From IMG/VR virus record IMGVR_UViG_3300013126_000230, positions 1 to 24,756 of that record: a DNA stretch of 24,756 nucleotides; one strand, written 5' to 3'. Numbering within the stretch: position 1 is the stretch's first letter; the number at the start of each line of letters is the position of its first letter. Under the pieces are notes generated by a model, which worked only from the letters and a program-made list of their open reading frames with translations, was not told the DNA's origin and did not search any database. This DNA comes from a virus. Below, in pieces: positions 5,916 through 23,531 of the stretch. Position numbers and translations under genes: made by a program.

Positions 5916-6380
5916 TTACTTTGTAGCAGCGTTATGTGCTGCTGTATCAACAACTGTATTCATTGTGAGTGGTGCTTCTTCATCCATACTTGGTGGAGTT
6001 CTGCTTGGTACTTCATACTCATTACCTTCTGCCCCCATAACAACTGGTTCAATCTTTTCTTTTGGTACTTCTATTCTTTTTACTCTAAAGTCAACTTGTT
6101 TGTTGTTATCAACATATTCAGCCTGATCTATTGTCTTAGAGCAAGTATCATTACTTATTTCAGTTTCACTATCCTCTGTAGAAAGTTCAGTTTGAGTACT
6201 ACCAAATTCTCTACTACCAGCAGGAGCAAGTACATCACTTGTACAACTACCCTCTGCCTTACATACATCATTATTACATTCTAACTTACCCCAATTTGCA
6301 GGGTCTTGACAAGGATAACGATAATGTCCATCGCATCCTGCTATTAGTAATAACGGTAATATTATTTTTATTATTCTCAT
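5916..6380 (-). CDS. Lipoprotein with cysteine-rich N-terminal region, function unknown
   Basis: A 154-residue protein with a short signal peptide of isoleucine and leucine ending in the lipobox LIAGC (C16 is the lipidation site). The mature N terminus holds five closely spaced cysteines in YRYPCQDPANW, LECNNDVC and EGSC; the rest is acidic and probably unstructured. The cysteine pattern is one I associate with lipoproteins of T4-like aquatic phages, but no function is known to me. It lies at the head of the lysis operon, so roles in envelope disruption or in blocking superinfection are possible. Its ATG overlaps the stop of the 27-codon frame upstream (ATGA), suggesting that its translation is coupled to the leader peptide. 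Confidence 0.8.
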   Translation of the reverse strand: MRIIKIILPLLLIAGCDGHYRYPCQDPANWGKLECNNDVCKAEGSCTSDVLAPAGSREFGSTQTELSTEDSETEISNDTCSKTIDQAEYVDNNKQVDFRVKRIEVPKEKIEPVVMGAEGNEYEVPSRTPPSMDEEAPLTMNTVVDTAAHNAATK

Positions 6381-6460
6381 ATATTCTCCGTTAGTTGGTC
6401 AGTTTTTCCCAACCCCATCTTATACCATGGTGTTACTTCGCTTGGATCTGGCTCAGCCAT
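6377..6460 (-). CDS. 27-codon leader peptide before the lipoprotein gene
   Basis: A short open frame begins MAEPDPSEVTPWYKMG and ends at a TGA that overlaps the ATG of the lipoprotein gene (ATGA). It has a suitably spaced Shine-Dalgarno sequence, GAGAG, seven bases before the ATG, located in the 3' arm of the hairpin at 6463-6498. The 4-base overlap, the binding site, and the lack of another good binding site for the lipoprotein gene support real translation. The peptide is soluble and acidic, without a membrane segment. It may serve mainly to couple translation of the lysis operon, or may be a functional micropeptide; the sequence cannot decide. Confidence 0.6.
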   Translation of the reverse strand: MAEPDPSEVTPWYKMGLGKTDQLTENI

Positions 6461-6462
6461 AA

Positions 6463-6498
6463 AAATACTCTCATAAATGGTTATCTATGAGAGTATTT
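6463..6498 (-). promoter_or_regulatory. 13-bp hairpin: possible terminator and ribosome-binding-site switch before the lysis operon
   Basis: AAATACTCTCATA (6486-6498 on the minus strand) and TATGAGAGTATTT (6463-6475) are perfect complements around a 10-base loop, followed by more T residues. It lies 17 bases after the methyltransferase stop, so it can act as a rho-independent terminator for that gene, although the stem has only four G-C pairs. Its 3' arm contains GAGAG, the binding site of the 27-codon frame, so any read-through RNA would hide it. Confidence 0.65.
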
Positions 6499-6501
6499 AT
6501 C
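6494..6501 (-). promoter_or_regulatory. Late-promoter-like octamer overlapping the 5' arm of the lysis-operon hairpin
   Basis: The minus strand reads CGATAAATA, the same nine bases as at 8589-8597. With T4 late-promoter spacing, initiation falls near base 6488, inside the hairpin. Such transcripts keep only three bases of the 5' arm, so the GAGAG binding site of the leader peptide is exposed. This is the geometry known from T4 genes e and soc. Confidence 0.5.
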
Positions 6502-6515
6502 GTTTTGGGACTGTA

Positions 6516-7223
6516 TTACTTGATGTCTAATGGACGGTCTTTAGTTGCAAGAATACAATAATATTTTTCTTTTAACTCTCTAATAGAGCCATCTTCATTT
6601 TTTAGGGTAGGTACTCCTACACCGAACTCAATTGCTTCAAACTTATTACTTTTGAATCCTGTTCTTTGTAATAGGGCTGCTAATTGATGTTGTCCTAAGA
6701 TGCTATAGTGGTTGAGATTATATTCATGCATTCTATCGCACTCAGGGGCCGGGACCTCTATATAGATTTGCCCGCCCTGCTTTAATATACGATTATATTC
6801 CATCAATGTAAAGATAGGATAAGGGCTATGCTCTAATGCATGGCGACAGAAAATAAAGTCTACGCTTTCGTCATAATATCCATCTTTTTGAGGTAAGAAT
6901 GACAAGTCGTACTTTTTTATTATATGACCTTTTTCTTCACACGTTTTAATATCACCCGGACTTAATGTGACTCCATGAACATTTGTGTATTCGCGCTTTT
7001 TCATTTCATCTAGGAAATAACCAGGACCGCAACCTAAATCTAAAATATGTGCATCTTTTGGAATATTAAGCGGGTCAATATATTTTTCAACAATCTTGGT
7101 TGTCAATCCTTTATGCATATTGCTATCACCCTCATCATAGATGTGGGCAGTATAAAGCCATTCATTGTAAAGTTTTAACTTAACAAGATCAAGTGTTTGA
7201 TTTATATCAATTAAGTTTTGCAT
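6516..7223 (-). CDS. Class I SAM-dependent methyltransferase
   Basis: A 235-residue Rossmann-fold methyltransferase. Motif I is LDLGCGPG (residues 61-68), which binds S-adenosylmethionine; GVTLSP follows at the end of strand 2; the segment DFIFCRHALEHSPYP corresponds to motif IV of the Methyltransf_11 type, and LKQGGQIYIEVPAP to motif V-VI. The substrate is not evident. Enzymes of this subclass often methylate small molecules or sugars, and the operons to the right include sugar-modifying enzymes, but no DNA-methyltransferase motif (DPPY or a PCQ loop) is present. It has a conventional binding site (AGGA) and a late-promoter-like TATAAGTA 22 bases upstream. The hairpin at 6463-6498 follows its stop. 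Confidence 0.85.
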   Translation of the reverse strand: MQNLIDINQTLDLVKLKLYNEWLYTAHIYDEGDSNMHKGLTTKIVEKYIDPLNIPKDAHILDLGCGPGYFLDEMKKREYTNVHGVTLSPGDIKTCEEKGHIIKKYDLSFLPQKDGYYDESVDFIFCRHALEHSPYPIFTLMEYNRILKQGGQIYIEVPAPECDRMHEYNLNHYSILGQHQLAALLQRTGFKSNKFEAIEFGVGVPTLKNEDGSIRELKEKYYCILATKDRPLDIK

Positions 7224-7275: not shown

Positions 7276-7638
7276 TTATTCGTAGCCTTTAAATGGTTTT
7301 ATAGGACTTTGTGTATATATGCTAGGTAATTCACGACTTTTTAAATCACCTTTATTAAGATCAGTATAAGGTATACCAGCTGCGTCAAATGCAAGCTCAA
7401 GCATATTTTGTTCTACTTCTGTATAAGCATGAGCAGTATTTTGTTTTGCTGCCCAACTCTCTCCTTCTAGATTTGGTCTAGTTTTACCATCAGTTGATGC
7501 AACAGCCATCATCACACGATTTAAATCATATGTTCTATCATAATTTGTGTTAGTAAAGGTATGCAAACCCACACTAGCGTAATGTTGTCTTTTGCTAGGT
7601 TTGTTTCTTTGCTCCGTTACAAATTCTTTTGCTCTCAT
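7276..7638 (-). CDS. Small phage protein with T4-type capsid-targeting N terminus (paralogue 1)
   Basis: A 120-residue protein paralogous to the gene immediately upstream. Both begin MRAKEF, then VTEQ here, and end SPIKPFKGY or SPIKAFKGY; a central match (YDLNRVMMAVAS against YDLYRFGVAIAA) and an ESWAAK/ESKWGK match show that the similarity runs the whole length. The N terminus resembles the capsid-targeting peptide of T4 internal proteins (basic residue, EF, then a V/L-T-E site like the gp21 protease consensus (L/I)-X-E). It may therefore be packaged in the head and trimmed at residue 9. The start ATG overlaps the previous stop (ATGA). No enzymatic motif is visible; its job after delivery is unknown. 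Confidence 0.75.
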   Translation of the reverse strand: MRAKEFVTEQRNKPSKRQHYASVGLHTFTNTNYDRTYDLNRVMMAVASTDGKTRPNLEGESWAAKQNTAHAYTEVEQNMLELAFDAAGIPYTDLNKGDLKSRELPSIYTQSPIKPFKGYE

Positions 7639-8039
7639 TTACTATAACCTTTAAATGCTTTTATAGGAGAGCCTTTATATGTGTCCTTCATTTCTTCACT
7701 GCCCGGACTACTTACTGATTTTTTTCCGTGTTTGTTAACTTTAGCCAATGCTTTATCAATTACTTTACCTACATTGGGATCAAAACTGCTTATTGTAGGA
7801 TGCTTGCCCCATTTGCTTTCAGGTCTGAATTTAGGTCTATTTTTATCCTGCACGTTATCTTCGCTACCCCCTTCACCTCTAACTGCTGCTATGGCTACTC
7901 CAAAACGATAAAGATCATAGAAGTTGCTATTGGAAAGTTCAGGAATTATGTACGTATATGGTAATGCCATGAATGCGACATCCATTCCGTCATGGACATT
8001 ACTTAATTGTTGTTCTGTTAAAAATTCTTTGGCGCGCAT
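7635..8039 (-). CDS. Small phage protein with T4-type capsid-targeting N terminus (paralogue 2)
   Basis: A 134-residue protein starting MRAKEFLTEQ. The LTE at residues 7-9 fits the (L/I)-X-E cleavage rule of the T4 prohead protease, and the whole N terminus resembles the T4 internal-protein signal MKTYQEFIAE. The body contains YDLYRFGVAIAAVRGEGG, and the tail SPIKAFKGY is shared with the next gene, with which it forms a tandem pair overlapping by four bases. The protein is rich in Lys and Ser near the C terminus. I recognise the pattern as recurring in T4-like aquatic phages without a known function. The binding site AAGG precedes the ATG, which lies two bases beyond the stop of the virion-protein gene upstream. 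Confidence 0.75.
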   Translation of the reverse strand: MRAKEFLTEQQLSNVHDGMDVAFMALPYTYIIPELSNSNFYDLYRFGVAIAAVRGEGGSEDNVQDKNRPKFRPESKWGKHPTISSFDPNVGKVIDKALAKVNKHGKKSVSSPGSEEMKDTYKGSPIKAFKGYSK

Positions 8040-8588: not shown

Positions 8589-8596
8589 TATTTATC
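8589..8596 (-). promoter_or_regulatory. Late-promoter-like octamer for the virion-protein gene
   Basis: The minus strand reads GATAAATA, followed by 20 bases that include AGGGA and then the ATG at 8568. This is a conventional late promoter with a leader of about 15 bases, and the same CGATAAATA nonamer occurs before the lysis operon. It abuts the divergent octamer at 8598-8605. Confidence 0.5.
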
Positions 8597-8597
8597 G

Positions 8598-8605
8598 CAT
8601 AAATA
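8598..8605 (+). promoter_or_regulatory. Late-promoter-like octamer directly before the spanin operon
   Basis: The plus strand reads CATAAATA, then TCTTT and the ATG at 8611, with no Shine-Dalgarno sequence. As before the genes at 2858 and 4426, exactly five bases separate octamer and start, so T4 late-promoter geometry puts initiation on the ATG. The sequence AAATATC that follows is shared with the plus-strand gene at 22767. Confidence 0.4.
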
Positions 8606-8610
8606 TCTTT

Positions 8611-9087
8611 ATGTGGATAATCAACTGGTTACCAGAATTTGTAGTCCATCTCATTTTTCTAGCAGGTATTGTTGGAACCATTGCTGGTTTCGTGTTAGGG
8701 TTTATACCCTTTGTCAGTAAGTATAAACTCCCAATACAGATCATAAGTCTATTACTGTTATCATTAGGCGTGTACCTCGAGGGGGGTTTAGCCGAGAAAG
8801 CCAAATGGGAACTACGTGTAAAAGAGATGGAAGCAAAGGTCGCTGCTGCCCAAGCAGAATCACAAAAGACCAACGTAGAGATAGTAGAAAAGATAGTGAC
8901 TGAAAAAGAATACATAAGATTGAAGGGCCAGAAGGTTGTTGAATATATAGATAGAGAAGTAAAAGTATTTGATAGTAACTGTACAGTGCCAGAAGTCGCT
9001 ATAAAAGCGCATGACATGTCAGCCGCAAATGAGGCACCAACAGAGAATACAATTACTGTGGTCAAGCCAGAAGGGGAAAGTAAGTGA
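8611..9087 (+). CDS. Inner-membrane spanin-like protein (Rz-like) with two membrane segments and a coiled coil
   Basis: A 158-residue protein with two hydrophobic segments (about residues 9-33 and 40-57), then an Ala/Glu/Lys-rich predicted coiled coil (about 60-105) and a polar C-terminal tail. This is the layout expected of an inner-membrane spanin, except that classical Rz has a single membrane segment. The next gene is an outer-membrane-type lipoprotein whose GTG start overlaps this stop, as for Rz/Rz1 pairs. Together the two would bridge the periplasm and fuse the membranes in the last step of lysis. No Shine-Dalgarno sequence precedes the ATG. A similar-length open frame on the opposite strand exists but lacks these features. 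Confidence 0.7.
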   Translation: MWIINWLPEFVVHLIFLAGIVGTIAGFVLGFIPFVSKYKLPIQIISLLLLSLGVYLEGGLAEKAKWELRVKEMEAKVAAAQAESQKTNVEIVEKIVTEKEYIRLKGQKVVEYIDREVKVFDSNCTVPEVAIKAHDMSAANEAPTENTITVVKPEGESK

Positions 9088-21936: not shown

Positions 21937-22740
21937 TTACTTGAGTCCCATCTCCTTACGGATTTTTGTGGCACTGATTAAGTGTATAGCATCGTCAAAG
22001 ACCTCTTGCTCAATTTTGTAACCTACATCACGCCCATATGTAATGTTGACGATGTTTGGAACGACAACGATTTCATATTGACCTTGATACTTTGGATCTA
22101 AGTCTCTACGAATATACTCTTTTACCTGTTCAATAGCAAATGGATTTGACCCATTCCATCCTTGACAGTCACGTATCATTATACATACTTGACCTGTCTT
22201 TGCTAATGCTCTTTCAAATAACGCACGATGTCCACTATGCCAGGGTTGCCAGCGACCTAACATCTCTACCGTTTCTTTTTGATAGTCAAATACCGGTCTG
22301 CGTTGATTTTTCAATATATGATTGGCAACGAACGGTGCCCATACTTCTGCGTTTTGTTCTGTGATGCGAAAATCATAAACAGTCGGGGGTATGAATGCTT
22401 TATTGGTATCTTCATACCTACCCTTTTCAATCGTATCGATCCATACTGTCCAATCTGCTTTATAATTGTTACGCATCTCTACTAATGGTGCTACGAAATC
22501 ACAAATCACATAATCACATTCTGAACTTTCTGCAAGGTCGTGCATTCTATGCGATTGCCTAATACGACCTTCATGACTGAAATCCCAGTCATTGAACTGC
22601 TTGCGAACCTCATCAGCATTATACCATTCAGTAGTGACTCCAATTATTGATTCAAGTTCTCTTTTCAATATATTAGTAAAATATGTTTTGCCGGCGCCCG
22701 GCAGACCCATTACAAGAATTTTGATAGATTTTTTCGTCAT
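21937..22740 (-). CDS. APS-kinase-like domain fused to an NMN-adenylyltransferase-type nucleotidyltransferase
   Basis: A 267-residue two-domain protein. Residues 1-145 resemble adenylylsulfate kinase (CysC): Walker A GLPGAGKT (12-19), then NADEVRKQFNDWDFSHEGRI (41-60), which mirrors the D-x-D-x-VR and GFS-x-x-R-x-x-N region of CysC, and WIDT (100-103). Residues about 155-267 form a nucleotidyltransferase of the NadM/NadR type: GRWQPWHSGH (162-171) with the HxGH motif, and ISATKIR (255-261). APS kinase makes PAPS, the sulfate donor for sulfotransferases; the second domain would make NAD or another adenylated compound, or possibly APS itself if the fold has been reused. A sulfotransferase-like gene starts divergently 26 bases away. 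Domain calls are good; the true substrates are open. Confidence 0.75.
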   Translation of the reverse strand: MTKKSIKILVMGLPGAGKTYFTNILKRELESIIGVTTEWYNADEVRKQFNDWDFSHEGRIRQSHRMHDLAESSECDYVICDFVAPLVEMRNNYKADWTVWIDTIEKGRYEDTNKAFIPPTVYDFRITEQNAEVWAPFVANHILKNQRRPVFDYQKETVEMLGRWQPWHSGHRALFERALAKTGQVCIMIRDCQGWNGSNPFAIEQVKEYIRRDLDPKYQGQYEIVVVPNIVNITYGRDVGYKIEQEVFDDAIHLISATKIRKEMGLK

Positions 22741-22748
22741 AGTACTCT

Positions 22749-22760
22749 TATTTATAAATA
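22749..22760. promoter_or_regulatory. Palindromic two-way late-promoter-like element
   Basis: TATTTATAAATA contains a perfect TATAAATA on each strand (22753-22760 plus, 22749-22756 minus). The plus copy is 6 bases from the ATG at 22767, the minus copy 8 bases from the ATG at 22740. It is the only element in the 26-base gap between the kinase-nucleotidyltransferase gene and the sulfotransferase-like gene, so both may be switched on together late. Confidence 0.5.
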
Positions 22761-22766
22761 TCAGAT

Positions 22767-23531
22767 ATGAAAATATTACTTTTTGGTTTTCCTAGAACTA
22801 GGTCTTCATTACTTCAGGATGTTCTATGTAAACACTTTAATTTAAAAAATTTATGGGAACCATATGAAAACATCCGCGATAAAATTAAAAGTATAAAAAT
22901 AACCTCAACTGATTTATGGAACAGCCATAAACTTCAAGTTATTGAAACTACGGAATTGCTAGAAAATGATTCTAACTTTGTAGCAAAGTGTTTTGCTTGT
23001 TATGGATTTAATATCTATAAGACAAAACATGATCTTCCTATTTTTTGGGAAAAAGGTGATTTTTTAGATTTGAGTTATTTTAAATTGAATATGTATGATA
23101 AAATTTATTGTACATATAGAACAAACTATACAGACATGATATGTAGTTACAGGTTTATGAAAAATTTCAGTTCTCCATTTTACCGCATAGACCATAAAAA
23201 CGATTTAAAAAACAAAGAAATGCATAGTAGGCAAAAAATAATAATACCATATGACGTTAAAACCGCGTATCTTGATTGCATAGAAAAAATAATATACGAT
23301 TGTCGTATTAATCAATTTAAAAAATTAAATTATAATTTTTTAGAGTTAGAATATAACGAAATACCAAAATACATTGAAAAAAATTTATCTAATGTTCAAA
23401 GTAAATATGTAGAATCTGAATTTGATTATAAAAAAAGAGTTAGAAATTATTCAGAAATAGATGATAAAATTAAAAAAACTTTTGAAGAATTAGAACCAGT
23501 CAAGAAACAAATAGAACTTTTATTTTCTTAA
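22767..23531 (+). CDS. Sulfotransferase-like protein (second copy type)
   Basis: A 254-residue protein. The N terminus LLFGFPRTRSSLLQDVL (residues 4-20) matches the 5'-phosphosulfate loop of sulfotransferases, with PRTRSS in place of the PRTGSN seen at 9362-10099. KIYCTYRTNYTDMICSYRFM near the middle matches the 3'-phosphate region with conserved Arg and Ser. The gene is very rich in A+T, with long runs of AAA and AAT codons, and is the only plus-strand gene in this part of the genome; its end overlaps the convergent gene by 12 bases. This suggests separate acquisition. There is no Shine-Dalgarno sequence; TATAAATA lies 6 bases before the ATG. The acceptor is unknown. Confidence 0.6.
   Translation: MKILLFGFPRTRSSLLQDVLCKHFNLKNLWEPYENIRDKIKSIKITSTDLWNSHKLQVIETTELLENDSNFVAKCFACYGFNIYKTKHDLPIFWEKGDFLDLSYFKLNMYDKIYCTYRTNYTDMICSYRFMKNFSSPFYRIDHKNDLKNKEMHSRQKIIIPYDVKTAYLDCIEKIIYDCRINQFKKLNYNFLELEYNEIPKYIEKNLSNVQSKYVESEFDYKKRVRNYSEIDDKIKKTFEELEPVKKQIELLFS

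Follow-up and report, generated by a model that had tools for sequence, protein, structure and literature searches.

A late promoter within a predicted translation-blocking hairpin ahead of the lysis genes of an uncultured T4-like phage

A 24,756-nucleotide stretch of viral DNA (IMG/VR record IMGVR_UViG_3300013126_000230, positions 1 to 24,756), hereafter the window, contains a short inverted repeat that stands between a methyltransferase gene and a set of lysis genes and is overlapped by a sequence of the late-promoter type. Does this arrangement determine which RNA is translated, and, if so, to which gene does it belong? The features of the locus, all on the minus strand, are as follows:

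7223-6516, minus: methyltransferase gene, its end 14 nt from the octamer; the conserved upstream neighbour of the element
6501-6494, minus: late-promoter octamer GATAAATA, recognized by its sequence and running into the hairpin's 5' arm
6498-6463, minus: hairpin of 13 perfect pairs (5' arm 6498-6486, loop 6485-6476, 3' arm 6475-6463)
6488, minus: late RNA start (+1) as predicted from T4 spacing, within the 5' arm
6472-6468, minus: GAGAG ribosome-binding site, inside the 3' arm, seven bases 5' of the ATG at 6460
6460-6377, minus: 27-codon frame MAEPDPSEVTPWYKMGLGKTDQLTENI, what is left of a virion structural gene of phrog_1645
6380-5916, minus: lipoprotein gene (lipobox LLIAGC), with its own GGAG at 6389-6386
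5906-5592, minus: 104-aa putative membrane protein, phrog_25359, function unassigned
5592-4435, minus: endolysin with GH19-like and Peptidase M15_3 domains, phrog_181

Anatomy of the promoter-hairpin element

The original prediction described a perfect 13-bp hairpin with the GAGAG of the 27-codon frame in its 3' arm and a late-type octamer overlapping its 5' arm. Both are found in the sequence, which on the minus strand reads ...GATAAATACTCTCATAGATAACCATTTATGAGAGTATTTTTATGGCT...: the octamer at 6501-6494 runs into the 5' arm at 6498-6486, the two arms are AAATACTCTCA and TGAGAGTATTT, and UAUUUUUAU lies directly 3' of the stem. Adding A-U and G-U pairs in the 10-nt loop lengthens the stem to 16 pairs and leaves a loop of 4 nt. 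The window has no other perfect stem of at least 11 bp with a loop of 3-10 nt. The 45-nt segment folds with a minimum free energy of -17.6 kcal/mol (z = -6.1), a stability equalled in none of 200 shuffles, and the arm score of the leader, 33.5, is reached by none of 100 leader shuffles. Among Rfam covariance models, the only match, to an unrelated family, stayed below the gathering score (E = 0.69), and a megablast of the window against phage records gave no match. The exact hairpin pattern occurs once per fetched stretch, with variants preceding other genes, and a genome-wide identical repeat was rejected on account of this single occurrence.

Folding of the long and the short RNA came out as had been anticipated: in the models GAGAG is fully paired in the long RNA and about 0.6 unpaired in RNA from 6488, while the modelled cost of opening the start region at 6460 is 17.9 kcal/mol in the long RNA versus 3.3 kcal/mol in the late RNA, a difference of 14.6 kcal/mol. 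We consider it probable that the element is a late promoter within a translation-blocking hairpin, working like the leaders of the T4 genes e, soc, 49 and I-TevI. RNA entering from the methyltransferase operon would carry both arms, with GAGAG locked in a stem of 13-16 pairs, so that the frame at 6460 would go untranslated; RNA begun at GATAAATA would start near 6488, without most of the 5' arm, and leave GAGAG free.

Comparison with the T4 leaders

The mechanism is known in kind from T4, where it is documented for few genes. The start regions of e, 49, I-TevI and soc are hidden in long RNA (review, PMC3014915), those of e and I-TevI being freed by late promoters within the hairpin (PMC3014915; also PMC2988022), and translation of e from its long RNA is about 100-fold poorer (PMC3014915). 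As a yardstick, we used a leader scan that takes octamers (NATAAATA) 18-62 bases before an ATG, in T4 and in the fetched contigs, and scores the pairing of the octamer end or start site with the ribosome-binding site or AUG, with a threshold of 18. T4 has 35 such octamer leaders, and exactly four of them exceed 18: e, 49, I-TevI and soc. For e, the modelled opening costs of long and late RNA are 16.3/1.2 and 15.7/4.0 kcal/mol, i.e. differences of 11.7-15.1 kcal/mol. Thus, the T4 scan and these energies, together with the covariation described below, support the proposed e- and soc-like geometry.

The individual T4 leaders show distinct degrees of likeness to that of the window. The e leader resembles it in having a late octamer in the 5' strand and the ribosome-binding site in the 3' strand, in its energies and in its adjoining lysis functions; however, its hairpin stands before the gene of the lysis enzyme and is carried on known early/middle RNA, whereas that of the window precedes a gene remnant and the RNA coming in from upstream is probably late. 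The arms of I-TevI (AAATACTTCT / AGAGGTATTT) are close to those of the window, but this is an intron-borne homing endonuclease rather than a virion or lysis gene. The leaders of soc and 49, found by the same scan, have a geometry equal to that of the window in front of different genes; soc hides its AUG, as do the hairpins of the tail-fibre-like and lipoprotein families of the relatives.

Recurrence of the leader and the question of termination

Using the endolysin as a query, we fetched 80 relative loci. The gene families found behind the element are virion structural, tail-fibre-like, 55-aa unassigned and lysis lipoprotein. In the tail-fibre-like family, which begins M[AS]IIQISK, the AUG sits at the stem base, the scan is passed by 46 of 52 octamer leaders, and the arms covary (0.372 vs 0.142 in shuffles, with double changes in nine of 12 pairs). 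In the 55-aa family it is GGAG that lies in the 3' arm, and 39 of 47 octamer leaders pass. Where the octamer is directly 5' of the lipoprotein (L004/L008, L018, L068, L006), a hairpin covers either the AUG or the ribosome-binding site, and because of these lipoprotein hairpins it appears that the entry to the lysis genes gained the geometry in at least two sequence forms.

Two further observations concern these families. The 55-aa protein (MAKIVEDV..., L127:18974-19138; relatives L332-L411) is conserved, mostly behind a late-promoter hairpin, and of unassigned function, with no PHROG match. At L006:1323-1366 (also in L007, L096, L101 and L119) two late octamers lie in one hairpin directly before the lipoprotein; two late octamers in one hairpin have been described for T4 gene e (review, PMC3014915).

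A stem at such a position could alternatively be mainly the intrinsic terminator of the methyltransferase operon, with the late promoter in the 5' arm letting its own RNA escape. As in a terminator at an operon boundary, a stem and a U-run follow the last upstream gene: UAUUUUUAU comes after the stem in the window, T-runs of 5-8 are found in elements right after the methyltransferase, and L008, L018 and L029 hold a GC-rich terminator-like hairpin at the site, with a separate octamer further on. The window stem, however, is AT-rich and has a promoter inside it; despite its U-run, it was not called by a terminator scan with strict loop and tail rules. Moreover, the U-run is dispensable in sister elements: members of the same family elsewhere keep the pairing without a T-run (L175, L188, L189, L217), and so do the 55-aa, tail-fibre-like and lipoprotein families, while the 3' arm always ends on a ribosome-binding site or start codon. 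The survey of sister elements took out-of-frame ATGs in long-loop elements and missed some elements, and its counts are therefore not used alone. Hence, we regard termination as an unlikely principal role, albeit one that can coexist with the translation-blocking late-promoter hairpin and could account for part of the stem.

A virion gene reduced to 27 codons

In the closest relatives the hairpin comes after the same methyltransferase and is followed by a phrog_1645 virion structural protein of 503-541 aa, and the homologues behind this leader are 23, 27, 54 and 503-619 aa in length. The shortened frames of 54, 27 or 23 codons share the N-terminus MAxPxPxxVxPWY with the virion protein. After the 54-codon form comes a brief segment, KMGWKELTN, which is the end of the long gene, and the frame of L093 ends in KKLTN. 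By this shared N-terminus and these ends the 27-codon frame is a deletion remnant. To judge from the sequences, the promoter and hairpin are an inheritance from the phrog_1645 virion gene, which has shrunk here by internal deletion to 27 codons, its promoter and hairpin being left before the lysis genes.

The original prediction had taken the frame for an evolved leader peptide. A selected regulatory peptide, whose translation would control the lysis genes via coupling, accords with the overlap of its TGA stop with the lipoprotein ATG (ATGA, 6380-6377) and with the retention of the 27-aa frame in L092. Yet L093 stops four codons earlier and has no overlap with the lipoprotein; the window and L092 are distinguished from it by a two-base length difference, pointing to a frame shift that created the ATGA overlap in these two. 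Further, between the window and L092 there are three amino-acid changes to one silent change, and the N-terminus is that of virion proteins of 500-600 aa. A selected peptide is thus quite improbable, and that part of the prediction was not borne out: the C-terminus and stop of this virion-gene remnant are changeable.

The site between the methyltransferase and the lipoprotein (6380-6516; L004-L030) is variable, holding full, shortened or different genes that share the leader and an N-terminal tag, MAxPxPxxVxPWYLRNI; it looks like a hotspot of exchange or deletion.

Conservation and covariation of the arms

To test the conservation without bias, we used the protein to retrieve relatives of the virion gene and limited the counts to PWYLR starts. 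The octamer and the arm complementarity are kept together: by our count, paired arms are present in about 17 of the 22 relatives with an octamer within 65 bases, versus a comparable hairpin in one of the 14 without it. The original prediction thus passes the check in relatives that had been set for refuting it. The octamer GATAAATA is found before late-type genes both in the window and in relatives. A query with T4 gp55, defined by T4 record coordinates, matched 10 of 12 relative records; there was no match in the near relatives G001 and G002, which are also apparent fragments, as is the window itself. In the fetched contigs, with the window's own family excluded, 11 of 91 octamer leaders (12.1%) pass the scan, compared to 34 of 1278 leaders with permuted motifs (2.7%).

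The arms change jointly, as CTCTC/GAGAG, CTCAC/GTGAG, CTCTT/AAGAG and CACA/TGTG, plus G-U steps. For the virion gene, 92% of cells are paired and the covariation score is 0.208 versus 0.086 in shuffles, a value reached by none of 500; the arms are nearly invariant at the exact window locus, the double changes being those of more distant relatives. The arm alignments (A2, A5) omit the loops and hence bear on pairing alone. A2 includes several sequences retrieved with a pattern in which the outer seven pairs are fixed, so that only its inner pairs are informative, whereas the loci in A5 were retrieved by protein.

This covariation bears on whether the inverted repeat serves instead at the DNA level, as the operator of a dimeric repressor acting on the late promoter. 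The palindrome does overlap the promoter, and I-TevI, an autorepressor, binds over its own late promoter (PMC2988022). An operator is nevertheless very improbable, given that the loop varies in length while the arms stay complementary, both arm sides change together, G-U pairs are common (e.g. CUCU/GGAG in the 55-aa family), and the arms are tied to a ribosome-binding site or AUG. A chance repeat beside an ordinary late promoter, conceivable in AT-rich sequence where an octamer and spacer can pair weakly through composition, has a negligible probability and is refuted by covariation far above both shuffles and slid pairings, as also by the shuffles (z = -6.1) and the permuted-motif control.

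The lysis genes and their control

The three genes downstream had been labeled lipoprotein, holin-like protein and endolysin. The endolysin is upheld by its M15 and GH19 domains and phrog_181, and the lipoprotein by its lipobox; the holin-like label is not, the protein belonging to phrog_25359. The lipoprotein has no Pfam or PHROG match; in its family the lipobox is directly followed by a strongly conserved motif, YRYPCQDP, and most of the fetched relatives have the gene 5' of those for the holin-position protein and the endolysin. In the window, the octamer at 6501 is probably still the promoter of the lysis operon.

The lipoprotein has the stronger ribosome-binding site, with an anti-SD pairing of -6.6 for its GGAG versus -3.1 kcal/mol for GAGAG, and the modelled cost of opening its start is 2.9-4.9 kcal/mol in the long RNA versus 2.4 in the short. 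As the lipoprotein start is thus modelled as open in the long RNA, the hairpin could control the whole operon only by way of coupling or termination. Any effect of the hairpin on the lysis genes would accordingly be indirect, through the ATGA or through transcription stopping at the stem, and its timing of the whole lysis operon, as originally predicted, is no more than a possibility.

Divergent from the lysis operon, a 158-aa protein (8611-9087, plus strand) weakly matches the Rz-like spanins of phrog_312 (E = 1e-4).

Upstream transcription: timing or insulation

The operon that would read into the hairpin begins at a second octamer:

8596-8589, minus: late octamer GATAAATA, the next one upstream, where the operon that would read into the hairpin starts

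In every relative with an upstream leader inside the contig, the next octamer leader is 2.1-3.5 kb above the hairpin, and matches to sigma70-like promoters were not above chance. Since the octamer at 8596 is of the late type, the RNA entering the hairpin is probably itself late, and insulating late operons from one another fits at least as well as delaying lysis. This leads to a more tentative proposal, to which we give somewhat less than even chances: the compact cassette of octamer, hairpin and start, 30-60 bases long, may be a standard part across a large set of T4-like phages that are uncultured, used within late operons in at least four gene families to silence late read-through RNA, so that a gene would be translated only from its own late RNA; this would be insulation and not early/late timing.

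What is new relative to T4 is how widely the device occurs and how strongly it covaries among T4-like phages that have not been cultured, where it precedes several virion and lysis genes. By this covariation and recurrence it looks like a common way of choosing which RNA is translated. The device is a recognisable signature, which predicts lysis control in phages that have never been grown. It also raises a further question: what advantage does silence on late read-through RNA bring to a late gene?

Late octamers are also found between divergent genes in the window: back to back at 8589-8605, with GATAAATA on the minus and CATAAATA on the plus strand, and as overlapping TATAAATA octamers on both strands at 22752-22764, between the genes 21937-22740 (minus) and 22767-23531 (plus). 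Finally, the adjacent small genes at 7276-7638 and 7635-8039 (minus) share an MRAKEF(V/L)TEQ N-terminus and an SPIKxFKGY C-terminus, and occur as tandem copies in relatives.
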